In this document: positions 1-64,000 of the stretch, piece after piece
Position numbering within the stretch: position 1 is the first letter of the stretch
Layout: each line of letters begins with the position of its first letter
Source of the DNA: Umbilicaria muhlenbergii
Taxonomy: Eukaryota; Ascomycota; Lecanoromycetes; Umbilicariales; Umbilicariaceae
Length of the DNA: 64,000 nt
Assembly: GCA_000611775.1 (NCBI GenBank)
Contig: KK106983.1
Span: 3,096,808 to 3,160,807 of the forward strand
Direction of reading: 5' to 3'
The notes under the pieces: model-generated
Databases searched by the model: none
Seen by the model: the letters and a program-made list of their open reading frames with translations, nothing else
What the model was told of the DNA's origin: nothing
Program-made: the position numbers and the translations under genes

Positions 1-3000
1 TCTTGTACAGCATGTCACTGAAGCAGTTGAAGTTAATCAAGACTTACCTTGAAAATCACTTGAAAAAAAGTTTCATAGTCCTTAATGATGCTCCTTACAT
101 GTCATCAGTTCTCTTTGCAAAGAAACTTGAAGAGGGGTGATGTTTTTATGTTGATTACTGAAAGCTTAATGTAATCATTAAGAAGGATAAGTACCCCTTG
201 TCTTTAATTGAAGAGACTTTAGCATGACTGATTAAAGTAAAGGTTTTTATCAAGCTGAATGTTAAGCAGGTGTTCTACTGAATACAGATGAAGAAGTTTA
301 TCAAGAATTTAATCACCTTTCAAATGAGGTACAGATTTTACAAATACAAGATTTTATTTTTCAGCCTTTGCAACAAACTCACCTCCTTTCAGAGGTATAT
401 TAATGATATCTTATTCAATTATCTGAATGATTTCTGCATGATTTATGTGAATGATATTTTGATCTACTTGAAGGATCTGTTGAAACATGATGCTCAAGTT
501 AAAAAAGTGCTTCAACATCTTAAGAAAGCAAGCCTACAAGTGAACATAAAGAAGAATGAGTTCAACATTCAATTTATCAAGTTTCTGAGCTTCATCATCA
601 GCACTGAAGATATTATAATGAACTCAGACAAAGTTTTTGTCATCAAAAACTGACTGTTATTAAAATCAGTCAAGGAAATTTAATCCTTCTTAAGATTCTG
701 CAACTTTTATTATTACTCATTAAAAAAATGAGGTTGAGTTGTACATCTGTTGACAAAGTTGACTGCAAAAGGGGCCTGACACCTCTTAGAAGAGCTGAAA
801 ATTCAAGTTTTTGAGAAGGTAAAAAAGCTGATGTTATCAGATGTTATTCAAGCTCATTACTCACCTTATTTGAAAACTTGAATGAAGACAGATGTCAGCA
901 GTGAAGTTGTTGCAAAAGTGCTCACTCAACAACAGAAAGATGATAAGTGAAAACCTGCAATTTACTTCTCAAAGACAATGTCACCTGAGGAAATGTGATA
1001 TGAGATTCATGACAGAGAGATGTTAGCAGTTGTTAAAGTCCTTCAAGAATGACATGACATGTTATTAAATCTACAAGCAGCTCCTTTTGTCACAATTACA
1101 GATCATCATGTTTTAAAGTACTTTATCATCAAGTGATTACTTAATTCATGACAAGCTAAATGAGCTGATATTGTGACAGACTACAACTTCAAGATTACTT
1201 ATTACTCAGAAACAGTCAACATTGTTGTTGATGCTCTGACAAGAAAACATGATGAGTTGATCACTCAGAAAGAAAAGAACATCACTGCATGAACACAGTT
1301 ATTTTTGAATTCTAATTACATAATAACTGCAATAGATGAGGGTTCAATGAATGTTGAAAGTGATTCACTGAATGAGACTGAACAGGTGAAAAATTCTTAT
1401 CAGCTGATGAATCAGATTCTGTAAGTTAATCACTTTCGTGAATCACTGAATCAGTGTCATCAGATGACAAGAAAGGAGGAACAAAGCTGAAAGTTTTAAG
1501 ATAATCTTTTTACATGATTTGAGAAGCTCATGATGCTGAATGTTGATGCTTTGCAGACTCATTTAATTAATGAAGCTCATTCAACACCTGTGATGATACA
1601 CTCAGGCAAGATTAAGATGACAAAGCTGTTGTCAGTTCAGTATTACTGATCAGGTCTGTCAAATGACTGTTCAGTTTTTATTTTAAACTGCTGAACATGT
1701 CATTAAATGCACATACTCTGAGACAAGACCTCAGGCCTACTTCACTCTTTATTAATTGAAGATAAGTGCTGACAGCATGTCTCATTCAACTTTAAATTCT
1801 TCTCACAGGACAAGAAAAGCTTTAATAATATATTTGTTGTTGTTGATCACTTTGAAAAAAGGGTCTTCTCACTGTCATGTCAAAAGACAGTTACAACAGC
1901 TCAAGTTGTGCAATTATATTATAAGTACATCTGAAGAATCTATGAAACATCTGAGACAACAATGTCAGACTGAGGGCCTCAGTTCATCTCAACATTCATG
2001 AATAAACTCTGTAAGCTTGTGAGGGTAAAGCAAAAGCTTTCAACAACATATCACTCACAGATGAACAGAAGCACTGAGGTACTGAATCAGTATATTAATC
2101 AACAGCTTCACCTCTTCATGAATCACTTTCAAAACAACTGATCAGACCTTTTATTAATAATGAATTTCACTCAAGTGGTTCTCACTCATGAGTTCACAGG
2201 CATGTCATTTTATGAGTTAAAGCTGAGACAGACTCCTCATCTACACTTTCATTAAAAAGAGTGAATGCAATCCTTAAACACTGTAAGGGAGCAATTGACA
2301 AGAGAAGAAGCTCAGACCTTCATTATTAAAACTCATGACATAATTAAATAAGCAAAGGAAAACCTGAAACAGGCTTAAAATAAGATGACAGATTAAGCAA
2401 ATAAGCATTGAAGAGAATTGAACTTCTTCATTAAAGACTGAGTTTATGTTACTTGAAAGGATTGAACCACTGAAAGACTTAACTTAAAGTTGAATCATTA
2501 AGCAGCAGGCCTTTATCAGATTCTCAGCATGAAAAATCACTTTTATGTTCTGAAGCTACTTGAACACATGAAGATGAACAACATCTTTCATGCTGATCAT
2601 TTAAGGAAAGCAGTGAATGATTTAATGTCAGATCAAATTCAGGACCTGAAGTCATCAACTGAAGTTAATAATCAGCTTGAGTATGCAGTGAAAAAAATTT
2701 TAACAAGTCAGATTCACAACAACATCCTGTAATATCAAGTGACTTGAGAGGGATATGATTCAGACTCAGAATGATATGATGTCATTAACTTTATAGAGTC
2801 ACCTCAAAAGGTAAAGAACTATCATGATGCTTATTTAAATAAAGCAGAGTCACTGAGGAGGCTACAAGTTTAATTAAATGCTTATAAATCAGGTAAAGAG
2901 CTGAACTCAATAAATGAAGACAACATGACAGTTAATAAAAAATTCAAGAGGCAGTCAAGATGAAAAATTTAAGATGAAAACTGAGAACAGTCCTCCTGTC

Positions 3001-3220
3001 TGAAGAGAGATGATGTTACAACATGATCAATTAACACTGATGAATATTAAACTACCTGATGTTAAATTAAATTGAGACTAGTGTGTCTTGACACTTTGAT
3101 ATTTATGTCATGACTGCACTCACAAGATTACTTTCTTCTTTGTACTTTTCTAGATTCAAATAACTCACCTCTTGCAACAGTTGTAAGCCTGCTTATGAAG
3201 TGAAATAATTAACTGTAACA
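1..3220 (+). mobile_element. Degraded Ty3/Gypsy chromovirus, 3' part (family A, copy 1)
   Basis: This is the 3' half of an LTR retrotransposon cut by the window start. Read on the plus strand through stops and frame changes, the order is reverse transcriptase (about 30-800), RNase H (about 830-1260), integrase (about 1430-2300), chromodomain-like tail (about 2590-2880), a purine-rich tract, then the 3' LTR. The longest clean frame (288-653) is the RT palm, in which the YVDD box reads YVND. RNase H shows the TDVS and KMSPEE-type segments. Pol order RT-RH-IN identifies Ty3/Gypsy, and the C-terminal chromodomain places it with chromoviruses. Stops are mostly TGA at expected Trp or Arg codons. 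It shares layout and clear similarity with the copy at 41.0-47.06 kb. It cannot make protein. Family call is firm; domain edges are approximate. Confidence 0.9.
3014..3220 (+). repeat. 3' LTR of family A copy 1
   Basis: This 207-base segment begins TGTTAC and ends TGTAACA, giving the short TGTTA/TAACA inverted termini of an LTR. It follows a purine-rich tract (3001-3013) that fits a polypurine tract. The segment aligns along its length with 46861-47061, which holds the same position behind the other family A copy. The shared 3' part contains a TTTCTAGATT-CAAATAACTC segment and the CTCTTGCAACAG motif. Boundaries come from the paired copies and termini. No target duplication could be tested because the 5' end lies outside the window. 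Confidence 0.8.
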
Positions 3221-4345
3221 GTTTCAGATGTATTACTTCATAATGATCACATGTTCTGATTAATAATAATGCTGATGAATAAGTTTCACTGTTCAGTTTA
3301 TGCCTGAATGTTCAGAAGACAGCTGATCATGTATTTTTTAAAAAAACTCAATCTGTAGGGATTCTGATACTCATAAAAAGTTATTTTTAAATAGAGCGTC
3401 ATTCACTACCTGACATTCATGAAGGTGAGTGTCATGTAGCTTAATGACATTCTTTGTTATGATTGAACAGTATTCACTGCATAATTCATTTGCTTTATTA
3501 ATTGTATGAACCTGCTTAAAAAGGCCTTCTTTCACTTCTCTGACTCAGATTTTCACACAGTCTGAAGTAAGAAGAGTCTGATAAATCAGGTTCTTATCCT
3601 CAGAGTTGAACATTCAAGTAAGAGCATTAGCTTTATCATTAATCTTGCTTGATCAGAAGATCATCTGAAAGTTGAACTTTAACAGAATGTTTAAATATCT
3701 GACTTGTCAACATGTCAACTTCTTATTCTTCATAAAGGTCTTCAAGGCCTGATGATCAGTGAAGACTTGTATGAGCAAATCAATGTATTCAAGTTCAAAA
3801 TGTCAGTGTTTGAAACAGTGAATAATGATCAGCAGTTCTTTATCATAGATGTGATGATTGCACTCTGCTGAAATCATGCTCTTGTTGTAGAATGTCATCA
3901 GGTGAAGAACTCCCTCATCATCATACTGAGAGAGGATTTCACTTATCATAAAATTAAAAACATCTGTCTTTAGTATGACCTGATAATTAAGGTCAAAATG
4001 CTTTAATATTAAAGTCTTCATCATGATCTGTTTGAGGTCCTGAAACATCTTAAAGCAGTCTTCAGTTCATGCAAAGAGGACCTTTTTCCTAATAAGAGTA
4101 ACAAGAGGTTTGATGATCTTAAAGAAGTCTCATATAAATTAATAATAAAAGTTAACAAAGCTTATGAAGCCTTGAACCTCTTCGAGGTTGATTGATTTAA
4201 CTCAGTTTATGACTGCTTTAATTTTTTAAGAATTCATACACAGTTCTTCTCCTGATATGATGACTTCTAGGAAGATGATCTCAGAGACATTAAATTTACA
4301 CTTTTTAATGTCAACTTGTAATGAAATACTGACTACAGCATTAGA
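3221..4345 (-). mobile_element. Degraded Ty3/Gypsy fragment (family D), RT/RNase H part
   Basis: On the minus strand the clean frame 4048-3803 (81 codons) reads as the RT/RNase H junction of a Ty3/Gypsy pol. It contains a TDVFNF segment, LSQYDDEGVLHLMTFYNKSM and AECNHHIYDKELL, which match the usual RNase H start. Sequence upstream (to about 4.34 kb) fits the RT thumb, and sequence downstream (to about 3.24 kb) is further decayed pol. The fragment abuts the 3' LTR of family A at 3220 and stops at the gene-island border. It runs opposite to family A and differs from it. Only part of pol remains and no LTR was found. Confidence 0.75.
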
Positions 4346-4529
4346 TAAAGCGGCCATTATATAATCTATTACAGTTGTAACATTGAATAACAAAATTGTG
4401 GTTGATTTTGTGTGACTGTTGTGCCTTCATGACTTGAGATTTTGACATGAAGCGTTTTCATATTACAGTCATAATGGGTGTGTGTACAGCTAAACGAAGC
4501 GTTTTCTGGCCTGTTTTTAGAATTACGCC

Positions 4530-4605
4530 CTCAGACCCTCCCCGGAAAACGCACGTAGTAAGCAGTTTTCGCTAAGCCACAGGCTAGCGAGGGGGGTGGT
4601 CTGAG
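4530..4605. repeat. Imperfect hairpin at island border
   Basis: CTCAGACC at 4530-4537 is the reverse complement of GGTCTGAG at 4598-4605. The pairing extends imperfectly inward through CCTCCCC against GGGGGGTGG. An inner pair, AAAAC near 4546 and GTTTTC near 4565, can also fold. The structure spans about 76 bases. It may be a relic of a small inverted-repeat element or a chance GC-rich hairpin; no second copy was seen in the window. Confidence 0.45.
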
Positions 4606-4673
4606 TGACTGAGGCAATCCGAGTGCCAAACCTCAGGCTCGCCACGGTACGAGGTACATGAATAACGACCTAG

Positions 4674-4727
4674 ATGTATAACTACTTCCATGTATACCTA
4701 CTTCCATGTATACCTACTTACATGTAA
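4674..4727. repeat. 16-base tandem repeat
   Basis: Three consecutive units of consensus ATGTATACCTACTTCC lie at 4674-4689, 4690-4705 and 4706-4721, with one or two substitutions each, followed by a partial unit. It sits at the border between the repeat block and the gene island. Function unknown. Confidence 0.8.
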
Positions 4728-5304
4728 GGTACTCTAGTGGTACCACTTTGCGCGCCTGCCTTACTCTATTGCTTCTTGCTCTTCCTCTTGCTCTTGCTTG
4801 GCACGAGCGCAGGCACTGAAGCACTGAATCACCCGAGAACTGGTCGAGGCAGGCCGTTGTCACTCCCAGTACGTTTCAGTCGTGCTGCGAATTCCTCATA
4901 CGCTTGTGCCTTGTTGCGCATGCACTTCGACTTTGGGCCTCCGAACTTAGAAGCCCCCCCCGGGCGGTGCCAGACTCCTATTCCCTGTCCCTGTCGCAAC
5001 TTGCAAAAAGCCTCAGGACGCCAGAACCGACCCGTCGTTGTCATCTCATCTCATCGCATCGCCCAGTTTCACTTTCACTACTCTTACTGTACTGACTGCT
5101 GTCTGCAATCGCATTACTGTCGCTGCCTCCTCGCGACGATATCTGGGTCGCCTTCCCTCCCTACCATCACTAAAATGGGTTTACCGTGAGCCCCCGTGTC
5201 CCCCTGCCTCGTCGCGCTTATAATGTGCGCTCGTCTGTTCGCTCACGTGTGCAGCTGCCTCATTATGCACTCCCAACGTCAGGCCCAGATCTTATGCTAA
5301 CCCT

Positions 5305-6645
5305 ATGCCGTTCAGAATGTTCCGTGAGCCCGATGCTCCCGATTCCAAGGTCGCCATCAAGACCGACCCTTCGGCTCATGCGCGATCTGCCATTCGTCGG
5401 CAGCGCACCGTCAGGTACAATCCTCACATTCATCACGATCACCCTTCCTCATCACGGTCGCGCGTGTACACCAGCCAATCTCGAGATCTCGATCGACGCT
5501 CCTTACTTCAGATCATACGCCGCGATCGCGCGACTCCACCAGCAAATGGCAACAATTCGGCCTCTGACCATGATGTAGAGGCCGAAGCAGATCTTGCGCA
5601 TGCGGAAGCAAGCAATCGAAGGCGGCTCGAGAGTGGCCGAGCCTTATTACGAGATGCTCTCAGCTTTGAGCGTCCAGGAGAACGCATGAGGATACCCGGC
5701 GACTCCACCCTGAGGTTCGATGTGGCTCCATCTCTCCCGCCCGTGCCGGATCCAAGAGACTACGCCGGCCAACGACCTGGGCGAGTTGAGTACTACGTTG
5801 ATCTCTCCAGGTTGGAAGATGGGACACGCGAATCTTCTGATGCACACGCAGCCGCACCCGCCCCTGGCGCTGCATCTCTCACTCCAAGGTTCGCACCTGC
5901 CTATCGCTTCGAAGAGTCATCTCTAAATCCACATCGCCTCCACCCGTCGAGTCACGCGCTTGATGACGCTAGCAGGCTGAGGGGGGGTGATCTGGATGAA
6001 TTGCCTCCGCTACGACGCATGGGAAACAGGAGCTTCCATGACACGTTCTATGAGCGCCACGATCCTAACTTACGCCACCCTGTGGACGGGCTTGGAGACC
6101 GGCGACGGAGCTTTAGCCCAGACGATGACACATGGGAGACTCTTCTCACCACCATTGCACCGGACGAACGTTTGCCAAGTGCTCACTCTTCGTTCACATC
6201 TGCTACGGCCTCCGCCTCCTCTCTCTCGTCCAACTCTGCGTCTTCGTCGGCCACCATCCTGACCGCACCGTCCTCCTCCTCCGCCGAATCCTTTGATGTT
6301 TACCCCACGATCTGTGACAATAGCGACTCCGAGGAGTCCGACGCCGGGGACGAGCATTACGCCATACTACGAACGTCACGGCGGGATGACCAGCGTCCCC
6401 GCGATCTTAGCAGGTATCCGGGCACTGCCCATAATAGAATTCGAGGGGCAGCAAGGCAAATCGATAATCACTCGGTACCCGCCAGGCGACAGGGAGATGG
6501 CGACGACGAACTTCGACAAATACATGCGATCCTTGATCAGTTACCCAGACGCGAGGATGTACCTGAAGAATGGTTGGCTGCAGCTGAACTGCCCCGGCTT
6601 TCTGGAGGGAGAGAAGACCGCGGCGTTGATAGGGAGAGACTTTGA
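5305..6645 (+). CDS. Unknown serine/arginine-rich, mostly disordered protein
   Basis: This single open frame of 446 codons shows no catalytic domain that I recognise. The start is followed after three codons by a second in-frame Met, so either may be used. The N-terminus is basic (an ARSAIRRQRTVR segment near residue 28). The middle is charged and proline-rich. A long serine run at about residues 300-325 follows a short ordered-looking DDTWETLLTTIAPDERLPS block, which looks like the most conserved element. An acidic NSDSEESDAGDEH stretch comes next, and the tail (HAILDQLPRREDVPEEWLAAAEL) could form a helix. I recall similar hypothetical proteins in filamentous ascomycetes but cannot give a function. 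CpG content and codon use fit the island. It is the gene nearest the left AT-rich block, about 1 kb from the border, and shows no mutation leakage. A small intron cannot be excluded. Confidence 0.8.
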   Translation: MPFRMFREPDAPDSKVAIKTDPSAHARSAIRRQRTVRYNPHIHHDHPSSSRSRVYTSQSRDLDRRSLLQIIRRDRATPPANGNNSASDHDVEAEADLAHAEASNRRRLESGRALLRDALSFERPGERMRIPGDSTLRFDVAPSLPPVPDPRDYAGQRPGRVEYYVDLSRLEDGTRESSDAHAAAPAPGAASLTPRFAPAYRFEESSLNPHRLHPSSHALDDASRLRGGDLDELPPLRRMGNRSFHDTFYERHDPNLRHPVDGLGDRRRSFSPDDDTWETLLTTIAPDERLPSAHSSFTSATASASSLSSNSASSSATILTAPSSSSAESFDVYPTICDNSDSEESDAGDEHYAILRTSRRDDQRPRDLSRYPGTAHNRIRGAARQIDNHSVPARRQGDGDDELRQIHAILDQLPRREDVPEEWLAAAELPRLSGGREDRGVDRERL

Positions 6646-7151
6646 ATTACTATTTTTGGGGGGCGTTGACAAGGACGGTACTATTGTGGTGTTTCTACAT
6701 CATCGCTACAGGCGTTCGGTTGTTGGGAAAGTCTTCCCGCATACCTGCGACGCAGCTGCGGTTGGAAGTGGACCGAGAATACCTTTTTGATTTGGATAGA
6801 AGAGAGATTCCATTCTTTAAGCAGCAGCACCAGGTTTTGCAGTGCAGCGCCGGGCTTAATGGCCTTCTCAGTACTCGTTGGTGTTTGATCAAGACTGGCT
6901 AAAGAGCATCTGCGGTCCACTGGAAGCCTTGTACAAGCGCAAAGTTTGTTCGCTCGGTCCGGCCAGGTCGCTGTTGTTGTGGTGGGCTCGAATTCCATGC
7001 GACACTCTACAGAATCAATATAGGCCTTCTCATGCGCAAAGGGTGATCAAGGACTCCACGGTGCTCTCCAAGCATATTCTCTCGTGATTTTGGATATCTT
7101 TGCTGCACGCCCGGTCGCCCGCCTGCTTCCCAAGACCAGCCCCTTTCTCAC
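6646..7151. other. Intergenic, convergent 3' ends
   Basis: This gap lies between the plus-strand gene ending at 6645 and the minus-strand kinase ending at 7152. Short overlapping frames on both strands have no domain-like content. It most likely holds the two 3' untranslated regions; I see nothing else. Confidence 0.5.
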
Positions 7152-8028
7152 TCAGACAACACTTGTGCTCTCTCCCGATGTCTGTGCCGCCAAGCTCCAC
7201 GTCTCATCCTCCCGGCTCACCACCACTTCCTGCACTTCCAACCTCCCGTCGACAATTTCCTTGCCGTTCACCAAATCATTCTCCGTCACCCTCTTTTGCG
7301 CGTCCTTCTCGTCCTTGGCGATGCCGGCCTTGACGTGCCGGTTAACCAATCTCCGTCTCGCCGTGTCGAAGTCCACCTCCACAAACCACAACTCGTCCAT
7401 CAACTCGGCGGCCTCCTTCCATGGGCCCTGATTCAAGCTCAGATAGTTTCCCTCGAAGACAATCACCCGTGCCGTAGGTGGGATGTTGATGTCGTCCTGG
7501 ACGGGGTCTCTCACGGCGTGGTCGAAAGAAGGTGCGTATAGAGTTCTGGACTCTGGGAGGAGAGGCTCGCGCAGTTTCTGGACGAGAGTGAGGAAAGCGG
7601 AGCTATCAAAGGTGAAAGCCGCGCCGCGGCGGGCATGGGCGGTGGTGGGGTCGGGGAGGGCAGACAATTGCGCGCGGGAGAGATGGTAGCCGTCCATTGG
7701 GATGAATGCAGCAATGGGGATGGTTGTGCAGCCGGGAGAATGCGAGTCGTGAAGCGCATTGAGCCGCTTCGATATCAGGCTTGCAAGGGTGGTTTTGCCT
7801 GTTGGAACATGAAGCTTGATTCCCAATGAAGAGGACTGCGGCTATAACTGAAGGAGCGAGACGAGCTCACCTGAGCCCGGAATGCCCGATATAGCTATCA
7901 AGAGTCGCTGCGACGCGGGTGTCTGCTGATATTTATCTAGATAGTGCCGTAAGCGTTTTGTGACCAGCCCAGAACTACACATGCTCACCCCAAGTCTTCT
8001 TGACCAACTTGTCGACTTGTTCCTCCAT
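7152..8028 (-). CDS. YFH7-like P-loop kinase (phosphoribulokinase/uridine kinase family)
   Basis: A P-loop kinase of the uridine kinase/phosphoribulokinase superfamily, related to fungal Yfh7; its substrate is not settled for the family. Exons on the minus strand are 8028-7989, 7936-7871 and 7798-7152 (753 bases, 250 residues). The introns 7988-7937 (52 bases) and 7870-7799 (72 bases) both start GTGAGC and end AG. The Walker A motif GIPGSGKTTLA spans the second intron. Downstream are PMDGYHLSRAQL, a PSFDHAVRDP segment and VFEGNYLSLN, which match the nucleoside-binding and Walker B-like regions of the family. The start was chosen because MEEQVDKLVKKTW joined at the first splice gives the usual N-terminus before the P-loop; a longer unspliced frame runs into intron sequence. 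Likely cytosolic, with no targeting signal. Confidence 0.88.
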
Positions 8029-8796
8029 GTCAGTGACGACGGCATGGAACTCCAAAGCTGTCCCTGGGAGCAGGTTCCTGAGGATGTGAAGAAGCAACGA
8101 AAGTTGCCGTACTTGCCCCGCGTTGCCTTGGCGAAGCGAGAACCCTCTCACGACTCAAGCGTGTCAGCGTGTCAACGTGTCGTCGTCTTCCTCAAAAAAG
8201 GCATTATGTCCACACGCTCGCCGCAAGAGTGTGGCCATGTCAGTGTCGACGATAGGAGTCAGTAGCCAAGCCCCGAAGAACGTGGCGTAGAAGGAGCTAT
8301 ACCCTCGCAGAATCTGAGCTACTGCCGTGGGACTCGACAGAGATCATGGTGAAAAGTCAGAGAGGATAGAACTGTAATGTTTGCAATACAGTTTCTGCAT
8401 GAAAGGATGCGAACATGACGAGCGCATGACGAGTACAATGGATGACCATCTGTCTTACGGATGTCCAGACGGTAAAATGGTCAATCGAAGCTCAAGACTA
8501 AGAGGGAGGACATGAGAATATCGCAGAGCACAGCCCAGCAAGAAATGGATAATAAAAGAATGGTGACCGAGGATAAGTCGTGTTATGTTTAAATACTTCG
8601 TCAGGTTAGATATGTTCTCCTTGCCAGGTATTTGCCCTGCTACATCCTCATATTGAGGCGACTCTCGGAGTAAATGCAATAGCACCGAAGAGCAAAGCCG
8701 CAAAAAACGATTGGAGTGCTCCGCAAAGACACCAAAACCGCTCCTGTAGCATCTTTGTCAAGAGCATGGTCAAAACCTACATGCCGCACTGGATTT
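8029..8796. other. Intergenic, kinase upstream region
   Basis: This gap separates the start of the minus-strand kinase from the stop of the minus-strand ABC1-like gene. Frames in it are short and lack domains. It should contain the kinase promoter and the 3' untranslated region of the neighbour. No RNA gene was seen. Confidence 0.5.
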
Positions 8797-10611
8797 TCAG
8801 ATTGTGGTAGAAATACCCACCGCCCGTTTAAATGAGACATAGTACTCAAAAAGAGAGAGCTTCAGCTCCACCCTCATATATGAACCCCACGCGCTCATCA
8901 ACCGAAAGAAATTGCTCGGCCAAAGGATACTACCGCGCTGGCTGAGAATCTCCATTTGTTCCTGGAAGACGGTTCTGCTACAGTAACGCGCGAGGATCAT
9001 GAAGGTGCGGACAGGGCCTTGTCGAGTATGGAGATTCTCGTCCAGGCTACGGGCTACAGGCGATCAGCAGAGTGTTACGGACCTTGGGGTGGAACATACT
9101 CAGGTCATTGGTCTTTAGTATAAGGAGCATGATCCTCGGCACCCGACCTAGCAGTACAACTAACTGTTGCAACATACCCTCACCCAAAGCCCCCGAAATG
9201 TCTTCTTTCTCTTGATCTGATCTCGTGGAAACAACTGATTTCGTAAGAACTCTGTAATCTCGTCCTGTGATAGCACTGGCAAAAAGGGGGAATTGGTCCT
9301 CTGTGATGCCGGCAACTTCATAAGCGTACTTTCGCATTGCACTCTCATCTGCATCGAGGACAGCAAGCCAAAGCTTGGCGTAATCTCGTCGCAACTGCTT
9401 AGGGATATCCCTGTAGAGGCCGTGATCGTACAGGATGATATCAAAGTTCTGTCTGCGCCTGGCTGTATTCTTACGTACGGCTATGTTTCCCCCGTGAGGA
9501 TCGCAATGCAATGGCGCCCCGTCTCCAAAGATCATTTCGTTGAATATACGTGACAAAGCTGCCGACACTTCGTCGCGATCGATACCGTTGGAATCGATGT
9601 ATTCTAGATCATCCGGCCGGTGACCAGAAATGTACTCCATAACGAGTATGCGCTTTAGCCCCCACTTAACATCAGGTATAATAAGAGGTGTCTCATGAAT
9701 ATCTTTGAAGTACTCCTTCGCTCGCAAAGCGTTTCTTCCTTCAAGTGCGAAATCCAGCTCCTGCGGTAAGGAATACTCCATTTCGTTCGAAAGCCATTCT
9801 AGATCATATTCGGGGAAGAATCGTTTGAGGGTTGAAAAGGTAAGTCTAGTCAGCGCCAAATCTAGAGGTGCCCACTCTTGCAAGCTTGGATGCTGCACCT
9901 TAACAGCTACTTCCTGACCAGTGTCCTTTATTCTTGCACGATGGACTTGCGCAAGAGATGCCGAACCTAGAGGCTCTCTTTCAAACTCGCTGAATAGATT
10001 TGCTATTGGCTGTCCCGTGTCCTTGAGAAACATCTCCTCGATCGATTCGTAGGATGAGACAGGACACCTGTCTTGCAGAGGTATGAAGGTCGTTGTCCAC
10101 TCTTCCGGCAGGAGGTAATTCATACTGCTCAAGTGCTGGCCGAGTTTGATGAAAATAGAGCCATTCTTCTCAAGCACTTCAAGCGTCCGCTCAGCACAGC
10201 GTTTGTGACATGCCTTCAGGAGAGATGTCCGCTCTTCCACGTCTTCAGTCTTGTGATTTAGAGTTACCCGATAACTGGGGAGCGTCAGCCATTGTGTCAA
10301 GCACTCATCATCGCTGCGACCCACTCATTCATACACAATGCTAGCGTACTCAAGACACGCCCTGATCGTTGTACAGCGGCGTAGCGATGCTTGACATCAT
10401 CTGTAAAGGCCAGTGCTCCAGCGCCCACCGCGCCCCCAGTAGCCGCCAGTAAGATGGCATTCCTCCTACCAGTATTACCATATCTTCGCCGGTTAGCTCT
10501 TGTTGTATTCTCGGCGGCTCCGGATGAGGCGCCTCGTCGGTGTTGCAGGCACCTGCGACATGTCCATGGTGCTGCTTGGCGGCGAAGCGCGGCAAAACCC
10601 GTGGGCCTCAT
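8797..10611 (-). CDS. Mitochondrial ABC1/UbiB-family atypical kinase (Mcp2/ADCK1-like)
   Basis: An ABC1/UbiB atypical kinase-like protein of the mitochondrial inner membrane; the Mcp2/ADCK1 branch is linked to mitochondrial lipid and coenzyme Q balance. Exons are 10611-10325, 10274-9100 and 9053-8797 (1719 bases, 572 residues, close to yeast Mcp2). The introns 10324-10275 (50 bases) and 9099-9054 (46 bases) have GT-AG ends. The N-terminus is Arg-rich and lacks acids, followed by a hydrophobic AILLAATGGAVGAGALAF helix, fitting import and one membrane segment. Family motifs are visible: KLGQ (about residue 140), an alanine/serine loop GSASLAQVH, QELDF, HCDPHGGN (about residue 350) and DHG in place of the usual kinase DFG. 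The C-terminal exon (RYCSRTVFQEQMEIL onward) completes the family's tail. All key motifs are intact. Confidence 0.93.
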
Positions 10612-10969
10612 CTTCTCGTGGCTGTCATCGCCGCCGTGAAAGAAAATGAAGAGGATGGATGAAAAGACTCCAGATCATGTTCTCTTTCCACGTTTCGGAA
10701 GAGGCTGAAGTGGAGAAGGCAGGCAGTAAGGGACTTCAATGCGAAAACATTTTATGTGTTCACATGCGTTAAGAAAGATATCGATGTGGATGTCGCGCAT
10801 CGGCTCGTCCCGTCTACCCCTGCCTGATTGACAGGGCTGACAGCCTCCCTCGCCTCCTCAGCATGTTGACCCAACAGTGCCAACCATTGGAAGATGGTGG
10901 ATGACCACGTCTCAAGATGCCTCGAGGACTAAGGTATACACGTCTTCTTGACTTTCGACGTCAGACGTC
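10612..10969. other. Divergent promoter region
   Basis: This spacer lies between the minus-strand ABC1-like gene and the plus-strand small membrane protein. It probably contains both promoters. The 5' exon of the small gene may begin in it, since an ATG at 10917 followed by a GTATAC donor is an alternative. No repeat or RNA gene was seen. Confidence 0.45.
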
Positions 10970-11372
10970 ATGAAGAGCTTGAACATAAACGCAAGAGTAC
11001 TGAGTCTCAGCTATCCGTCACTGATTCTGAGCTAACATATGCGACGGGAAGACCATCGTTGCGCCAATCGCGGCACTCACTATGGCAAGCTTGCTATATG
11101 TGTATTCCAGAACCTCGATCAGGGCGGCCAAACGCAACGCGCAGAAGCATCGGGAAGCGGATGGTGGGCAGCTCAGCTGGCGCAACGAAAGCCTGCGAAG
11201 GCATGGCGCATTGGAGCGGCCAGTGAATCAAGAGCCAGTTCGGCAGCTGTTCACTGGGGCAAATGATAAGGTTACCAAGCTCACCAAGGTTGTGGGGACT
11301 GATGGGGCCAGGACAGAGGCGGAGGAAAGGCTGCTGGCGAAGAAAGCCAAGCGGAGGGATGGGGGTACTTAA
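10970..11372 (+). CDS. Small one-helix membrane protein, function unknown
   Basis: The secure part is 11052-11372, which reads TIVAPIAALTMASLLYVYSR, a single membrane helix followed at once by basic residues, then a charged soluble part with EADGGQLSWRNESLRRHG and a Lys/Arg-rich tail (ERLLAKKAKRRDGG). The acceptor before 11052 is supported by a GCTAAC branch-like site 20 bases upstream. For the 5' exon I propose 10970-10996 joined over a 55-base intron (10997-11051, GT-AG, phase 0), giving 115 residues; initiation at 11082 or a different first exon is possible. The arrangement of a short N-terminal helix and positively charged flank suggests a mitochondrial inner-membrane or ER protein, which is inference. 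I recall similar small fungal proteins of unknown role. Its neighbours are mitochondrial genes. Confidence 0.6.
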
Positions 11373-12080
11373 CGGCTCATCCTCTGCCACAGGACCCATA
11401 CGGTACTATTTTTATGATACCTGATCCACTTAACTCCCCTTGCGAAAGACGTTGAGTGTCTGTGGTTCCCAAGGGATGGGCAGCCTTCTGCTGTTGAGCA
11501 GATGAAGCGAAGCGGAGTCGTGAGACAGCGGGCTGGGTGGGTAGGATAAAATTGATCTCTCTTAATCAGGCTTGCCACGTTTCAAATTGTTTAGAAAATC
11601 GTCTGAGTGTCAAACGTGAGCGCTCCGAGACTGGCGGACAGTGGTTTTACCTCCGAGCTCAGTGCGCTGGGGTTCCTTAAGATCTGCATCTGACGGCTGT
11701 CACTACCTACGTGAAACGGAAAAAGTTCTTGATGAACGCACAGATCCATCAGATAAGCAACAGATCTTTACGTATAGATATCTTATCACGATAGAATAAA
11801 AGCCCGAGATGGATTCTCAAAATACTCGAATCTCTGAAGATCAAGTCGGATGCCGCGCCAAAAATTGATATAAGCCTATCTCCTTGACGCCATGTGCTGT
11901 GATATCGTCAACACCGTTGAAACGCCTCCAAAGTGCACTTTGCGCCTCTCACTGCACGTGATCAACACAAGAATGCCAAAGAACGAAAGTCTGAAGGCCA
12001 TTGAATCAGGACGAGTCCCCCAGTAGCAAAAGGTGGATAGCCCCGCGAACACCGGCGTAATGCCAGCAATTCAAACGAAT
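11373..12080. other. Intergenic, convergent 3' ends
   Basis: This gap lies between the small membrane protein (+) and the NAD+ carrier (-). It has AT-richer patches near 11720-11880 but no frame with recognisable content. It most likely holds 3' untranslated regions; I see nothing else. Confidence 0.5.
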
Positions 12081-55000: not shown

Positions 55001-56799
55001 TCACATGTGAAATTGTCTGCTTTAAGCAATTATTCTGCAAGATTTTTAATGTCCTCATATGACATCTGCAGCTGTCAGTTGTAGAAGCTGATAATCAACT
55101 GTCATATTTAAGTCATTAAGTGACTGTGAAAGGCATTAAATGAGTCATAAAGCTGTTAATGTTAATTATGATTTATATAAGAAGTCAGCTCTTTCTACCT
55201 TGCAGATCTTCACAGCAGTGAGAACATTTTATACCTCAGTATGTTTCTTGCCTGTAACTGTTCTCATTCATCAAGTTATTCTTGTTCAAGCATCACTCAT
55301 CTTGTCATTAAGCCACTGTTTGTTAATATCTGATCATGAGGTGCTTTCTGATTCAGCATTACTGCTGAGTACTCATGCCTTCAAGTATGCTGTACAAACT
55401 GACATCAACAGTTCATGATCTGATGTTGAATGACAAGGCCCTCAACAGGATGCCTTTCTTCATAAGTACTGAGTTGAGATATCTGAGGAATTTTTGCTAT
55501 CATAATCTGAATCAAGGTTATGATTTTGTGAGGTTGACTTTTCAGTAGAAGATGAATGTGAAGTAGAGATCACTTCTCTTATAAAATGCCTCAGTGATTG
55601 TTTTAAGTGATATTCAATTGTTGACCTGAACTGTTAAACTGTTAATATTGAATCACTGCACTCTCTGTGTGATAAACACTTACCCTCATACTGATGCAGT
55701 CATCACCTATGAAACTGAATATGATATCATTATCATGCTGTTTCTGCACCTGCCTTATAATAAGGACTCAACACCTCTTTGATGTCTTCTCATAATTTAC
55801 AGCCTCTGAATGATCATGCTTCACCTGTAAGTAATTAGGTTTTGCGTTTGCTTAAATTAATTTGAAGTAAACAGTGTTTATCATTTGTTCTGTATTCAGA
55901 TCATGACCTTTCATAGTGTTGATGATGCTCAACACTGATTGACTGAGACAGGATGATGTGATAAATATAAAAGATTATTTCATGATGCTGTTTTGAAAGG
56001 TTGTTTTAAAAGATTGTTTTGAGGGGGGTGCTGTTATTTCAATGTGTCACACTGATAAATTAGTGACATGTCAGTGAATTAGCAGGAGTTTATGCAGTCA
56101 CATGCAGAATTATAAGTAACCTGTTCAATGAACATTAAGAAGATGTTGTGAGTCTTGACAGTCACTGATACTAAAAATGTGAGCAGTTGATTAAAAATGT
56201 CATCACAATAAAAGGTGCTGTGACAGAGCCTTGCAGCTTGTAATCTGTGATGCAACTTCAAGACTTTCTCTTCTGATGTGTTGTTTTAATCAGTGATCAT
56301 GGTTCTGACAGGCAAGAGATGTACAAGAGATTAAATGCTATCATTCACAGTTTCTTTTAAACCTTTGTATTTAAAACAGCAACACAGCTGTGTAACATTG
56401 ACTTTCTCTTAAGTGCTGATGCATTGACTGTGTAGTGTATACACATCAGCATAGTGTTTCACTCAAAGGCTTAAGTGTGAGATATTAAAAGAAAATGAAG
56501 CACACAAGATCTGAGGTAATACTGATGATGATGTGTCTTAATAAGTTATGATCACAATCTGATGACAGCAGGTTACATGATGATTTTTAAATTAATAAAT
56601 ATCAGTTTCCTGCTTCTTTGTTCATTGATATTGAGTCAAAACACCTCAGTGAAGGCTTTTTCCTCTCAGAATTAAACCTTTCTTGTAGACTTCATAGCCT
56701 GCTTCATATGATTAAGAATGTTCATTTGATTATGATATCTACTAATAACTTCTGTTCAAAGGCTCATTTTCATCACCGTCTAAATGCAATTAGTGATGA
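52001..56799. other. AT-rich degraded repeats, families unresolved
   Basis: No gene here has an intact frame. The minus strand at about 54.40-54.20 kb reads as an acidic Glu/Asp-rich tract, and frame 54955-54710 is a coding-like 81-codon stretch with no family I recognise. At 53129-53206, ATTGAATGT, AATGAACATTG and CATTGAAC motifs resemble the 21-base repeat at 58.02 kb. The plus frame 55140-55418 is probably antisense to a minus-strand relic. CpG is almost absent throughout, as in the transposons around it. Confidence 0.5.
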
Positions 56800-57960
56800 G
56801 TGAATGATTTTCAGAGTTGGCTTTCTATCTAGAAGTAGGTATTTATACTGTGTTGATGTTAATTTTACAGCAAACATGCATTAACCTGCTGATTGTTGAT
56901 CAGAGCATCTACAGATGATTAAATGACTTAATCTTATGATGATTCTTAAAATGTACCTTGAACATCTGAAATCTCACTCCTTTTGATCATGAAGAAGAAA
57001 TGTATTAACTTTTTAATGTGCATCTCTTTCAGGGCTGTCTTTCATTCCTGCTCATTTATGATGTGCATGCTCATCACTCTCTTACACTTATATAATATGA
57101 CATCCTCATCATCCTGATAGTTCAACTCCCGGGCAATCAATGTCAGGAAGGTGAGGAAGTTCAAATCATTCACAGTAATTATGTTCTTTAATGCTTCAGT
57201 CTTTAACAGATTCTGTGATTTACAGAAGATGCTGTGACATGCATTTTAATGAATCTGTATCATAATATATTAAATGACTTTTGTTGATTCATCTTTCTCA
57301 TTGTCTGTTTGTGGAACAGGTCCTGCAGCTGAACATTGAGATGTATCAGTCACATGACTTGAGATTGAAGAGATTAATTCCTCATGAGAGTTTAATCTTC
57401 TCTTGCTCTTCATCCACCTCCTCTTGTTGTAATTGCACTGTTGTGTCATAAATGTGAGGCATTTGTCACGTCACTTGTTGAAAATGCTGCAGAAGATGTG
57501 ATTAAATTCATGATATATTAATTTAAAAACTCATTATAGTAGTTCTTTGATCCTGCTTATGTTTAGTCAGCCCTCTAAGAGACTCAGGTTTCTCATTTAA
57601 GTCTGCAGTTGTGTTAATATTAAAGCATACACATGATCATTAATATTAAGATGATTATGTATCAGGTCACTTGTTCATGCTGTTGAGTTAACTTTCTCTA
57701 AATTCTTCATCATGTAGTTTGTTGAGGATGATGAATAGATGCTTTTAATGCAGCATTCAGAAACATGCAGTGACCTGATGTTTAAAACAGGAAGCAGAGT
57801 CTTTGATGTTATCAATTCTCTTGAGAGCTTCACTGCATCTAAATCTGATTAATACTTCATCACAGGCAGACGCTGAAGGTTTTGTGACTTCATGAATGAG
57901 TTGAAAATTTCAGTAAAGGTCTCTTTATACAAATGATGACAGTATATCACACGCCTCTAT
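56800..57960 (-). pseudogene. Degraded coding-like tract, function unknown
   Basis: Read on the minus strand, one frame stays coherent for more than 1 kb when TGA stops are passed over. Segments include VKLSRELITSKTLLPVLNI, NHLNINDHVYALILTQLQT, LNFLTFLTLIARELNYQ and HIKKLIHFFFMIKRSEI. The residue mix looks like a folded protein, but I recognise no family. It lies directly downstream of the transposase-like remnant and the 21-base repeats, so it may be an accessory gene of that element or a separate insertion. Confidence 0.45.
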
Positions 57961-58020
57961 TTCAGGGACGTCATGATAATCATCATTATAAACATGTTCA
58001 GTCAAATATGCAGTCAGTTC

Positions 58021-58083
58021 ATTGAATGAAAATCAACATTCATTGAACTAAAATCAATGTTCATTGAATGAAAATCAACATTC
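58021..58083. repeat. 21-base tandem repeat
   Basis: Three units of 21 bases (58021-58041, 58042-58062, 58063-58083); the first and third are identical (ATTGAATGAAAATCAACATTC) and the middle differs at four positions. Partial units flank them. Related motifs occur near 53.13-53.21 kb. Placed just after the transposase-like frame, they resemble subterminal repeats of CACTA-type elements. Confidence 0.8.
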
Positions 58084-58099
58084 AATGAATGTTATCTCT

Positions 58100-59225
58100 C
58101 TTGATTATAATACAACATCACTTGTGCTCCTCACTTAAGAAAGTCCTCTTCATAGATTGAATTGTACATGTCTCAATCACTGAAACTGTTGAGATAATAG
58201 ATAGTCCTCTTATGTTCTCAGGTTTTCTCTGTCATCACTGATATGATGTGTACACTTCTTATGATTGTGAACATCATATAGAACCTTTGACTCCTCACAG
58301 ACTGAAAGTTCTTTGAGGAACACTCTGATTAATCACTCAGTTCAATCATGTCATGTACATCATGTTGACATGCCTTGTTGAGTGGTTTGAATAGATCAAT
58401 TAAAGCATCAGTATGATGAATGTTCTTTTCCTTATCATTTCACTGCAGTGAATTTATCACTGATGCAATAAGTTGTAATTTCCCTGGTAGTCGCCTGTTT
58501 AATATGTTAAGTGCATCAGTGATATGATTAAGCTGTTCTTGAATTAAGACACAGTCATGCCTTCAATTCTTAAACTTGTTTTGTTAATCAGGCGTGCAAT
58601 ATACTCTCTCAGTTATCAGAACTTCAAGGTCATTCACATTCTTCTCATTCTGTTTTCAGCACTTCAGTGACCCGTGTACACATATGTGATATGATTTAAT
58701 TCAAGATGAGTCTTTTGCTTTATGAATCAAATCTCTGTTTAATACTGTGATGCTGTTCATAACATCCTGACATTCTTTTACAAAACCTGTCAGGGCATCT
58801 AATAAGCCTGAGATATTAAGAGTATCAGTGAGAGTTAAAATAAAGCATCACACTTTAAGGTTGAGCTCTGCTGACTGTATTAATGAGGCTTCACTTCTTT
58901 TTAAGAGGCCTTTCAGCTTCTTGAGTGAATAAACTCAGCTGAGTTTGATAATTGAAGTTATCATTACATTACATGATGTTTGACTGTCTCTGATATCACT
59001 GTGTAAGATGATGTCTTTCATAGTCAGTAGTTTCAAATGATGAGTGTTATGAAGTAATAATTGTCATTGAAAGGTCTCCTGCTTGTTTATTCAGTTAAAG
59101 TATGTTTTTATTAAGTACTTATGAGTGACTTCATTATGTTCTGTATCAACATTGTCTGCAGCGCTGTATTTGTGAATGTGTTCAGTGTAGTGAGTCATCA
59201 CATGTAGTTTTAAGATGTTAAAGTG
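58100..59225 (-). pseudogene. Transposase-like remnant, possibly Plavaka (CACTA) C-terminal part
   Basis: On the minus strand a coherent frame runs from about 59190 to 58150 with mainly TGA stops. It begins with an AADNVDTEHNEVTHKYLIK segment followed by a KQETFQ..QLLLHNTHHLKL stretch. This resembles the acidic/His-rich C-terminal part of Plavaka-type transposases, where a TE..H..K.....NK pattern precedes a basic helix. Later parts (NRRLPGKLQLIASVI, ALIDLFKPLNKACQHDVHDMIELSD, YNSIYEEDF) fit an extended C-terminus. The upstream catalytic part is missing because family B copy 2 begins at 59226. The family assignment is from memory of general patterns and is tentative; that it is a decayed protein-coding mobile gene is more certain. 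Confidence 0.45.
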
Positions 59226-62200
59226 TGTGAGCATTCAATGTACAGAACTCATCAGGTGCTAGTTCAGAATAAAAAAGATTATGCTTAACAACAGCACAAC
59301 CTTATGAAGATAACTTTCACTAATGAATTAATCTCATGAGAAAGCTCAGTCAATAGACATCACTCCTGACACTTCATGAAAGTGATTAAAGGAGTTAACA
59401 TCATTGATGACACCTCATGAAGATGTGATTCAGCAATGAACACCTCATGAAGACAGCTTCACTGAGGTGACTGCTTCATGAGATCTTCCTCAGGCAGGTT
59501 AACTTCAGAAGGGATATATTATGAGGTTAAAGCATGTCTCACTCTTTTTCTTAATAATAATTCTCTACCTACTAGCAATATCATACTATTGCAAACCATC
59601 AACTATAAGCTTAAGTCATTATTGTCACATAGCTTCATAATTCCTTAGTTAAGATATTACCTCATGATAGTACACTTACAGTTTTATTACTTCAATTCAT
59701 TGTAAGAATGCTGTTCAGCAAGAATGACTGAAAGCTCATGAGCTCCTCAATCAGCCTTCACAATGATTTCACAAACTGCTTCAGAAACTTCACAAGCAAC
59801 AGTTAATGATGATTTTATCATCTCTGACTCTCAGTCATGACATGCCACTTCTACATTCTCTGAGGAGTTCATCATAATGAATATCAAAATTCAACTTGTG
59901 AAGATTCAACTCATGAGTGAGAAGGAATGTACTAGGCAGACTGAGCTTAAAACTCACAGATGATTTACATCAGATTTATCTTCAACTTCAAAATACGCCT
60001 GCTATGAAAAGTGAGTCAAAGATGAAGACCTCTATCATACAAAGAACTACCTTCACTTTCAGCAGTATGTACATCAAATTGAGCACCTTTTCATGAAGCT
60101 TCACCTTGAAGAGTCAGATCAATATCTGAACTACAAGATTATAAAGTGATGAGTCACATATCATGAAGAAAAGAGCTTGAAAGATACCTGAGAAAGTCAG
60201 AAAGACTTTTTAAAGTCTCTTTTAAAAAATCATGATAATCAGGTGTATAACACATGAATGAATTAAATGAATTGTCACAAGCTGAGCAGTGAATCTGATG
60301 ATGAGTATCTTCACAAGTTGAATGAACTTCTGGCACAGATAAAAAATGAGGTGAAGAATTATCATTAAATTCAGTTAATGATCTTCTTCAAGGGAATGAA
60401 TCATGTCATGAAGCAGAAGATTCATGAACACCCTGTGTTTTCAAACTCTCATGAAGATTTGATTACACTCATGAAGAAACTCCGTCTCAGCATCAAAACT
60501 GAAACTCACTCATGAGTAATAATCATGAACAGTGACTTCAGTGAAAGCATCTCTGTGAACATCATGAAGCAAAAAGATCACAAACCTACAACATTCATCA
60601 TCACTACACTGCATAATCTGAAACCCTCATGAGGAGCATTCTTTGATGAAGACTGCAATTACTGTGATAAGCACAAATATAAAGAACTGAACTGTCTTAA
60701 GAAGAAGTCAAACAACACTGTGAGCAGGACTCTGTCAACTGATTCAGTTAATGACAGTAATCATGTCACAGCAGTCTCTGAGGCTACTGTGAAGATCATC
60801 ATGAAATCAAGATCAGAGAAGAGTGCATTCTTTAAGATGAAGACATGATTATGACTCACAGTACATCTTGCAGAGAGATCACTTTCAGCTGTTCTTAATA
60901 ATATTAATGACCTTAATCTTCTTCATAAGAATATTGTGAAGAGTTTATCTTCAGTCTTTAAGATGTTATTGCTTCATCATGTTGAAGGAGATACCTTGCA
61001 GACTTATTCTGTTTATCATGAAGTAATAAAGGTTCAGGACTCTTTCAGAGTATGAAAATAAACTTGTGAACCTTTTACCTCTGCTGACTTAAAGATGCCA
61101 GTAATCTTAGAATTATCATGATTAAAAAAAAATAATCTGAAGGTTGACTTCATCAATCTTACAGTACAGTGAAGGTTGAATGCAGAAGACTCTTTAATGA
61201 CTTTACTGCTGAAAGAGATCATCATAAAAGGCTTCATGAGAAAACTCAGAGACCTTAAGATGAATTACATGATGCAGAGATTGCAGATGATAAATCTTGA
61301 TGAACTGAAAAACTTCATGAACCTGATTCTTGAAGCTTACAAGAGCCTCATGAAGGTCTTTTTAAAAACTTAAGTGAAAACTCTGCCTCCTCATTACAAA
61401 AGAGATCACTCAATTGATCTGCTGAAGAGAACAACATCATCTTTTGACTTTATGTACAATCTTTTCATGAAGGAGTTGACTGTGCTATGAAAGTATTTGA
61501 ATATCAACCTCATGAATGAGTTTATTCAGCCGTCATGATCTTTCACAGAAGTGTCAGTGCTTTTTGCACTTAAAAATGATGAAGGCTTGCAGCTCTGCAT
61601 GAACTATCAGGGGTTAAATGCTATTACTTAAAAGAATTGATACCCTTTATCATTAATTGATGAGATCATGAATCATGTCTGTGACGCTCAGATCTTTATG
61701 AAGATTGATGTCAAAAACACTTATTATCACATTCACATACATGAGGGTGATGAGTGAAAGACAGCCTTTTGTACTAGGTACAAGCTGTATGAATATTTAA
61801 TTATGTTTTTTGAGCTTATCAATGCTTCTGTGAGTTTTCAGTCTTATATTCATGAAGTCCTTCATGAACATTTAAACATCTTCATGATTATATTCATGAA
61901 TAATATACTGATTTACTCAATGAAAGAGAGTCAGCATGAACAGCATATTCAGATTGTCTTGAAAGCTCTGCTCATGACAGAGTTGTTCACAAAGCTTTTT
62001 AAATACTTATTTAATGTGAAGCGTGTGCCCTTCTTGAGATATGTTATCACAGATACAGGGGTTGAAATGAAGATGAATCACATATTCATCATTGTCAACT
62101 GATCAGAGTCAAAAAGTGTGCATGAAGTGTAAACATTTCTGAGCTTCATGAACTTTTATTAAAGGTTCATACAGAGCTTCTTGTGTATCACTGCACCTCT

Positions 62201-64000
62201 CACAGAGATCATTAAAGAGTTTAATGCAAAATCAAACAAGAAGTTGATCTCATGAAGAGCAAACTTTCTGTCTTTGAAGGCACAGACTGCCTTTAAAGTT
62301 CTTGTGCAAGCTTTCACTACTGCTCTGTTTCTGCAGCATTTCAACATCACATTATTAATACAGCTTGAAATGAATGCCTCAGGGTATGTGATTTTAAACA
62401 TTCTCTCACAAAAACATCCTGATGAGTGAAGAGTTACAGTTTATTTCTCATGAAAGATGATACCTGCAGAATGAAAGTATGAAACTCATGATGAAGAACT
62501 GCTCATGATAGTTGAGAGTTTTCATTATTGACAGCACTATTTAAAAGGATTCACTCATTCAGTTGAGGTGCTATCAGATCATTCAAGCTTGTGAAGTTTT
62601 ATAACTACTCATAAGCTCTCATGAAGACAGGTTCAATGAGTGTTGACTTTATCAACTTATGATTTTGTTATCACTTATTGAAAGGGAAATTTAAATCTTG
62701 TTAACAGCCCTTCATGAAGACCTGATCATCAACATAAAGTGAAATAAGAGGATTAAACTGAAGATGCTTTAATGTTGCAACAGGTGCTGTTTCTGACAGT
62801 AACTTTAATTTCAGTTGAGCTTAAAAATGATCTATTGACTCAGGAGGTACATCTTCATGAGGTATTAATTGCAGGCACAATGAGTCTTTGACAGTGAAAT
62901 CAACAGAAACAGGCCTCTGAGGCTGTTTTAAATGAAGGACCTTATGAGGAGGTTGACATCTCTCTCATTAAAATGTTATCTGAATTCTTGTGAATTGATC
63001 CCCTCATGAAGCATATGCTGAAACAGATCACTACTCATGAAGTTAATTTAAGAATGTCAGGTTCTCACTCACTTTAATCATGAAGAGATGACCTTTTATA
63101 CTTTAACTCAGTGCTTTATATACCTCATGCAGAGTCATTACAACTTGAGATTATTAAGAAGCATCATGATGAGTCACTTGCAAGTCATCTCATGACAGAG
63201 AAAATCTTTGCTCTGATATGTGCAAAGTACTACTGACTGAACATGTGAAAGCAAATTCAGAAATACTGCAATTCTTGTCTTGTCTGTCAGAGAGTCAGAG
63301 TCATTCATGAAAGATAATCTGAATTATTACAACTCATACTTATCTTGAAGGGACCCTGAGAGGTACTCACTTTAAACTTCATAATTAACCTTTCAGAGAG
63401 CCATGCTTATGAGGGTGTGTATGATGTCATATTGATGATGATGTGTAAATTCTCAAAGATGGCACATTATATTTCAATCAGAAAGGATTGAACTGCTGAT
63501 TAACTTATGAAGACCTTTGTGAGAGAGATTGTTAAACTGCATGAAGTCACTTAAGCTTTAATTTCAGATCATGAATCTGTTTTTACCTCATGACTCTGAG
63601 TCAACTTGATGTTCATGTTGAAGATTAATCATTAATTGAGCACTGCCTTTCATCTGCAAACTGATGAGCAGACTGAATGACAGAATAACATGCTGAAACA
63701 GTATTTATGAAGTTATGTCAATTATCAACAGGACAATTGAGCCTCACTTTTAGCATTAATTGAGTTTACATACAACATGAGCTTACACTCTTCTACTGAA
63801 AAGGCATCATTTGAGGTCATCTATGACTTCATACTTAAATCAGATATGCTCACTGCAGAGAAACTCATGAAGTACTTTGCAGTTAAAAGAATTATCACTG
63901 AAGCTGAGCAGCTTGTGAAGTGTCTTCATAAGACTTAAATAAAAGTCTGCAGAGCTCTTATGAAGTCTTAAGAGTATCAAGTTAAACATTATAATCAGTC
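59226..64000 (+). mobile_element. Degraded Ty3/Gypsy element (family B, copy 2), cut by window end
   Basis: Same family and orientation as 34021-38638, starting at the shared GAGCATT-AATGTACAGAACTC junction. Gag occupies about 59.3-60.85 kb with a zinc-knuckle remnant near 60.65 kb (CNYCDKHKYKELNCLKKK), which keeps the Cys that copy 1 lost. Protease-like sequence follows. RT lies at about 61.4-62.1 kb (clean frame 61803-62102, active site reading MNNI where a YLDDI-type box is expected), RNase H at about 62.2-62.66 kb and integrase at about 63.0-63.84 kb. The sequence continues past the point where copy 1 was interrupted, into the integrase C-terminus, to the window end. A few CpG sites survive (near 59.99, 60.48, 61.53, 61.68 and 62.02 kb), so this copy looks less mutated than copy 1. 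Confidence 0.88.

Follow-up and report, generated by a model that had tools for sequence, protein, structure and literature searches.

Repeat-induced point mutation (RIP), as known from Neurospora and other Pezizomycotina, changes C:G to T:A on both strands of repeated DNA with CpA as its favourite target; accounts of its target choice usually name a single neighbouring base, and screens for it use CpA-based indices. In its accessible part, a 2025 kingdom-wide survey presents the CpA preference as common to RIP-like defences. CpG-biased hypermutation, found in Tuber and some basidiomycetes and, according to the original prediction, in ascomycetes such as Coccidioides, removes CpG and leaves TGA stops, while the TpCpG hypermutation of Microbotryum and other Pucciniomycotina adds a third context base, a T before the mutated C; the available portions of PMC4352252 and PMC4014442 describe CpG, and TpCpG for Pucciniomycotina, and name no base after the G. 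Here, two retroelement families (A and B) were followed from a 64,000 nt stretch of the Umbilicaria muhlenbergii genome (the window; contig KK106983.1, G000:C3:3096808-3160807 of a 34.8 Mb, 7-contig assembly), and their copies carry a real and well-defined C-to-T signature, read here as that of a RIP-like variant and not of canonical RIP. Two positions make up the target. At the base that follows the mutated C (+1) the order is G > C > T > A, and at the second base downstream (+2) A stands well above the other bases. The signature is probably the work of a repeat-directed mutator of the RIP kind, acting on both strands with a changed target.

Family A was built from 491 first-look candidates, 30 of which were scored, and 30 loci were cut out, including two window copies. 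For family B, 594 genome candidates yielded 40 scored copies, and the alignment holds 13: one window copy and 12 fetched copies (three of that copy's close subfamily and nine others), with the second window copy, at 3-3220, left out. One family A locus, L032, duplicates another, L014; it was omitted from the context, codon, flank and former-CCG counts and from the recount of strand choice in family A, and kept in the C>T direction count, the dinucleotide-column splits, the pairwise counts and the main strand-choice count. No terminal repeats were found in the six family A loci searched, and in five compared locus pairs the homology runs up to the locus end, so the loci end inside the element.

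The direction of change is clear in these alignments. Family A columns in which one base reaches at least 80% contain 1,307 C>T changes, 268 T>C changes and 58 transversions. Pairwise, the ratio of transitions to transversions is 34 (0.0029 transversions per site), and the A/G and C/T pair counts are alike (98,411 and 94,137), indicating that both strands were hit alike. In family B, transitions and transversions number 1,911:21 among the four close copies and 14,751:861 among the nine others. Only 0 to 14 CpG are left per family A copy, and at 176 dinucleotide columns some copies have CA and others TG, TA being rare (263 of 5,191 cells), as expected if one CpG was hit separately in different copies; control splits number 135 for GA/AG and 110 for TC/CT, which are expected from GG and CC, 69 for GC/AT and 34 for AC/GT. 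Former CCG sites are likewise split into CTG and TCA among copies. The mutated states arose separately in different copies, and the test set for refuting the original prediction went against refutation.

The context of each change was measured as the probability of finding T in another copy, given C in one copy, over columns with conserved +1 and +2 bases. Across 29 family A copies, it is 0.98 for CGA, 0.735 for CCA, 0.328 for CTA and 0.165 for CAA, and the order CGA > CCA > CTA > CAA is common to the nine B copies (1.00, 0.80, 0.53 and 0.22). Outside CpG, family A contexts with C or T at +2 range from 0.04 to 0.19: CCT reaches 0.193, slightly above CAA, followed by CTT (0.073) and CTC (0.047), while CCC was not estimable. 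CTG stands at 0.092 and CAC at 0.040, and CAT (0.047) and CAG (0.020) are nearly spared; the B copies give 0.29 for CCT, 0.11 for CAT and 0.04 for CAG. A six-position regression in family A assigns a deviance of 2112 to +1, 1699 to +2, 510 to +3 and 169 to -1, with about nil at -2 and -3. The original prediction, made from the window's letters, had proposed that C-to-T change strikes CpG and the leading C of CCA and spares CpA; the copy alignments bear this out, CpA being the least affected class. Its CCA/TGG component proved real and also incomplete, as the wider rule, C-N-A, takes in CGA, CTA and CAA along with CCA.

Compared with the known systems, the likeness to RIP lies in the C:G to T:A change on both strands, the hits on repeats, the sparing of an adjoining gene block and the presence of RID-like and DIM-2-like genes; the differences are that CpA is least affected, that TpA/ApT is not raised and that the +2 A matters. 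Ordinary CpA-directed RIP was rejected, because in both families no base at +1 has a lower coefficient than A, the opposite of canonical RIP. CpG-biased hypermutation shares the lost CpG and the TGA stops; what sets the present case apart is its strong non-CpG part with a +2 A rule. TpCpG hypermutation resembles the present case in combining CpG with a third context base; it was rejected because the base before the mutated C has little weight here (deviance of 169, as compared to 1699 for +2). The top C of TCG is not favoured either: TCG-class sites are found as TCA in 1271 and TTG in 375 cases in family A, and in 106 and 86 cases in the nine B copies. Plant CMT2 methylation prefers CAA and CTA, with CCA not its favourite; it shares the preferred A two bases downstream, and it is a methylation carried out by another enzyme family.

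Comparisons within single sites isolate the +2 effect. At a former CCG, a top-strand hit yields CTG and a bottom-strand hit yields CCA. In family A, 1,545 of 1,605 CA cells have T as the upstream pyrimidine, as compared to 148 of 1,333 TG cells, and the upstream C is lost more often in CA than in TG copies at 114 of 114 sites (30 of 30 in the nine B copies). A control base one step further out, without a +2 A, shows no significant difference (42:31 with one equal in A; 9:4 in B). The copies are related, so p-values for former CCG sites are descriptive, and the comparison was made within sites. Moreover, when one strand of a family A CpG carries a +2 A, that strand wins by 142:60 against G, 624:162 against T and 405:67 against C (138:59, 606:155 and 391:67 without L032).

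The window itself consists of two repeat blocks on either side of a gene block at about 4.45-33.4 kb, according to its composition profile, with the following features.

1..4450, no strand: repeat block depleted in CpG and CCA, with an edge 100-200 bp wide (100-bp profile).
3..3220, plus strand: family B copy outside the B alignment, 78% to 43835-47061.
4500..33400, no strand: gene block, used as internal control, with normal CpG and CCA (measured on 4800-33000).
34032..38639, plus strand: family A copy A1, shorter on its 3′ side than other copies; the 29 other loci match at 86-88%.
43835..47061, plus strand: family B copy that entered the B alignment together with the 12 fetched copies.
47501..59000, no strand: more decayed retroelement pieces with a like signature (CCA 13 versus TCA 1024, both strands).
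59228..64000, plus strand: family A copy A2 (locus L015), extending off the window end, 87.6% to A1 over 4610 columns.

The compared family A copies extend beyond the 3′ end of A1, which is truncated. Matches to RVT_1, RNase H or Integrase_H2C2 were obtained for five of six stop-to-stop pieces from the window and family A copy L030, including an RVT_1 match at 282-650 of the family B copy at 3..3220 (E 4.4e-8), an Integrase_H2C2 piece at 48654-48830 on the minus strand, and both RVT_1 and Integrase_H2C2 in L030; one further window piece had no match in the domain search. From these domains, we read families A and B as probable Ty3-type retroelements. The gene block has a GC content of about 0.5 and, taken kb by kb between 5 and 33 kb, a CpG observed/expected ratio of 0.67-1.10, and in the repeat blocks these values are 0.25-0.35 and mostly below 0.1 (maximum 0.33). 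Both edges, near 4.45 and 33.4 kb, are 100-200 bp wide, and in the window the neighbouring DNA is spared; for example, across the left edge, GC and CpG rise from 0.28 and 1 (4301-4400) to 0.39 and 2 (4401-4500) and 0.54 and 6 (4501-4600).

The depletion was counted in 34,069 repeat bases and 28,201 gene bases, with trimers compared on both strands with a first-order Markov model. In the repeats, CpG is found 42 times versus 887 expected from base composition, CCA 33 versus 392, CTA 310 versus 989 and CAA 1,289 versus 1,848; CCT (656 versus 333), CCC (84 versus 56) and TCA, which is TGA on the other strand (3,066 versus 2,441), exceed expectation. The gene block has 1,692 CpG versus 1,895 expected and 1,046 CCA versus 975, with observed/expected ratios of 0.84-1.10. 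The earlier statement that CpG is nearly absent and TGA, TCA and CpA/TpG abundant therefore holds for the repeats (up to about 4,450 and from about 33,400 onwards) and fails for the whole of 1..64000, as the gene block is normal. The usual RIP cut-offs are a TpA/ApT of at least 1.1 and a (CpA+TpG)/(ApC+GpT) of at most 0.75; none of the 67 repeat windows of 500 bp pass them. TpA/ApT shows no rise (0.68 in repeats, 0.67 in genes), while (CpA+TpG)/(ApC+GpT) is 1.62 in repeats versus 1.26 in genes, so that CpA/TpG is spared or raised there. The composite RIP index is above zero in 3 of 67 repeat windows (-0.94 overall in repeats, -0.58 in genes).

Codon changes agree with the context rule. Counts were taken in the family A frame with the fewest stops (chosen in L030) over the whole 4.6 kb, which may include non-coding sequence. 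Across 29 copies and 1,530 codon columns there are 1,295 TGA, 466 TAA and 40 TAG codons, together with 1,312 CAG, 607 CAA, 28 TGG and 80 CGN. Among 66 columns with TGA in at least two copies, some copy has CAA or CAG at 40 and TGG at 10 (5 shared with the 40); at 21, no copy has any of the three. Acting on both strands, the rule turns CGA into TGA or CAA, and CGG into CAG or, through TGG, into TGA; CAA and CAG at TGA columns are thus other-strand products of CGA and CGG, TGG becomes TGA because it is CCA on the other strand, and TAG is scarce because it complements CTA, itself a target, and becomes TAA. The noted predominance of TGA at former Trp and Arg positions and the survival of Gln codons, spared as CAG, were both recovered in these counts, and SQHEQHVQ is readable in L030. 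In a genome-wide RVT_1 search (877 candidates, 150 scored), TGA was the commonest stop as judged by eye, without summing. A sole RVT_1 match without a stop among the 150 scored lies at G000:C3:3998714-3999376, in an open frame of 544 aa.

Loss of C proceeds by context from copy to copy. Between the most GC-rich and the poorest family A copy (11 of 29 copies tabulated), residual C falls from 0.47 to 0.07 at CCA, 0.68 to 0.29 at CTA, 0.89 to 0.60 at CAA and 1.00 to 0.89 at CAG. Recent change can be followed in the duplicate pair.

G000:C6:2226517-2234122, near a contig end: L014, duplicate partner of L032.
G000:C5:896763-903955: L032, duplicate partner of L014.

They match at 99.2% over 4,194 bp and then at 100% over 1,382 bp, with 148 bp between the two stretches in L014 that are missing from L032, and the pair looks as if a copy had been duplicated after it was mutated. 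All 32 differences in 4,193 sites are C:G/T:A, so that further change of the same kind separates the near-identical duplicates; they affect 10 of 194 C with a +2 A, 13 of 1,023 with a +2 C or T (Fisher p 0.0014) and 9 with a +2 G. Two looser pairs show the same +2 A enrichment (60/240 versus 100/1,083 and 58/225 versus 83/1,032; 12 and 52 transversions). Further, 29 upstream 1.45-kb flanks of family A copies were taken and 27 kept (without L015 and L032), 20 of them CpG-poor and seven CpG-richer. The 20 pooled CpG-poor flanks show the greatest loss at +2 A within each +1 class; at least 6 of the 20 contain A or B sequence (55 to 1,003 bp), making their independence partial. The flanks of L008, L012, L017, L022, L028, L031 and L035 have a CpG observed/expected ratio of 0.55-1.08 and 21-53 CCA; DNA adjoining family A copies is thus not always mutated.

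The RID, DIM-2 and DIM-5 homologues suggested for look-up have candidates in the genome, which holds four places matching the DNA methyltransferase (DNMT) domain PF00145. L002, with PCQ and ENV motifs and a BAH match slightly below Pfam's cut-off, appears DIM-2-like by motifs and domains rather than by a tree; on the same grounds, L003 appears RID-like, with PCQ and EQT triads, an in-frame stop inside an intron-like gap (GTAAGT...TTTAG) and a RID piece 69% identical to a Lasallia pustulata protein. The EQT triad is described for RID/Masc1 in the accessible part of PMC6709928. A single Pre-SET match in the genome is a DIM-5 candidate. L004 (G000:C5:2347718-2351029) is a further DNMT type, with GFSCVDFS replacing the usual PCQ and an ENV triad; this type has 151 relatives at E <= 0.001, and among the 120 matches listed most are without a name. 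L005 (G000:C1:6525876-6529178) is related to L004, and its match contains a TGA.

Under the RIP-kind mutator, the chance that a C is hit would depend on its following base (G > C > T > A) and, almost to the same degree, on a +2 A; the gene content suggests that it would work through a RID-type enzyme, with or without DIM-2, and, by analogy with Neurospora RIP, the mutation may occur before meiosis, triggered by homology between copies. A more specific form can be offered tentatively, as a real possibility: a genome-defence mutator with a target of three bases, C-[G>C>T>A]-A, whose A is read one base further than in classical RIP, with either RID of shifted recognition or an L004-type DNMT as the agent. 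Several observations weigh against the RIP-kind mutator. In family A, the values for CGT (0.26) and CGC (0.90) were each estimated from 3 columns. The effect of +2 A on strand choice is weak in the 13 B copies (69:46 against G, 90:67 against T, 47:34 against C), and the nine B copies give 3:5, 51:39 and 7:2, ratios drawn towards one half by the requirement of two copies per state. Strand-processive blocks were looked for in family A and none were found (adjacent CpG agree in strand in 2,292 of 4,634 cases versus 2,270 +/- 24 shuffled; singletons 126 of 256 versus 136 expected). The ranking of 12 non-CpG contexts in the flanks does not follow that of family A significantly (Spearman 0.29, p 0.35); without +2 G contexts, an exclusion made after seeing the data on the reason that TNG is itself an other-strand target, it does (Spearman 0.82, p 0.007, nine contexts). 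The copies are the best-scoring ones of one genome and not a random sample. Finally, in their available parts, PMC12543289 describes RIP as CpA-directed, and PMC4352252 links RID with CpA/CpT signatures and associates those at CpG with a Masc2-like enzyme.

The strand data also bear on a division of labour between two processes, CpG methylation-decay and a RIP-like action at C-C-A, C-T-A and C-A-A. CpG has been lost far more completely than the other targets, CpG decay would supply CCA (CCG -> CCA -> TCA), and the weak strand choice in family B is what such a division would leave; the strong decision of the CpG strand by +2 A in family A, where one rule covers both, makes it doubtful. A dedicated mutator would be superfluous if repeats were methylated by a DIM-2/Masc2-like or other DNMT, at CpG and then at C-N-A, as in methylation induced premeiotically (MIP), and slowly deaminated in the ordinary way. 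The route has been proposed for CpG signatures in the accessible part of PMC4352252, the CpG preference is typical of DNMT1-type methylation, and a DIM-2-like gene is present. MIP alone is insufficient, as the sequences are mutated, and family A, at 0.0029 transversions per site, retains 0 to 14 CpG per copy with CTA and CAA losses well advanced. In vertebrates, 5-methylcytosine raises mutation ten- to fifteen-fold; such a rise would not yield the losses seen, and this explanation is unlikely. Two others were rejected as barely credible. An APOBEC-like cytidine deaminase that edits single-stranded cDNA as reverse transcription proceeds would suit retroelements with C-to-T changes, yet both strands are hit alike, and L014 and L032, which look like duplicates of a mutated copy and share 1,382 bp of identical flank, have diverged by this kind of change. 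Descent of the elements from a master in which CpG and CCA were scarce from the start, without mutation in place, would account for the 21 of 66 TGA columns lacking an alternative in the 29 copies, and is at odds with the 176 CA/TG columns and with the occurrence of both CTG and TCA at former CCG sites.

Other window features were recorded. A 389-nt inverted repeat with an 85-nt spacer lies at 40102-40964 (GC 0.15-0.38), with a copy also at 47819-48214; these short repeats (40.1-41.0 and 47.8-48.2 kb) are 92-96% alike, closer than the long elements, and the mutator may pass over short repeats. A strongly AT-rich stretch (GC 0.09-0.17) occupies 33501-33900, at the gene block's right edge. The gene block contains a match to an HhH-GPD DNA glycosylase of base excision repair (15027-16082, minus strand). 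The window also encodes an ABC1-family protein with 92% identity to one from Lasallia pustulata; like the RID piece, it points to a probable Umbilicaria/Lasallia-like lichen fungus as host.

In the literature searched, a +2 A or CCA rule was not met, and it may stand in Clutterbuck 2011 or in the Coccidioides genome paper; the +2 rule is absent from the available parts of PMC4352252, PMC12543289, PMC12542154, PMC7882544, PMC8773270, PMC6709928, PMC4014442 and PMC5381629. Cladonia rangiformis repeats, in the portion of the source available, have low GC, with RID and DIM-2 homologues, and the paper on transposons in Umbilicaria pustulata (PMC8773270) mentions no point mutation, methylation or CpG in its main text. 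A second-base rule that is uniform at all informative former CCG sites tested is a handle on how RID or a partner reads DNA, and it makes the enzyme's specificity testable by part swapping. Surveys by TpA and CpA indices can label a heavily mutated genome clean; if the C-[G>C>T>A]-A target is true, CpA-based RIP indices would miss the mutator wherever it is present.

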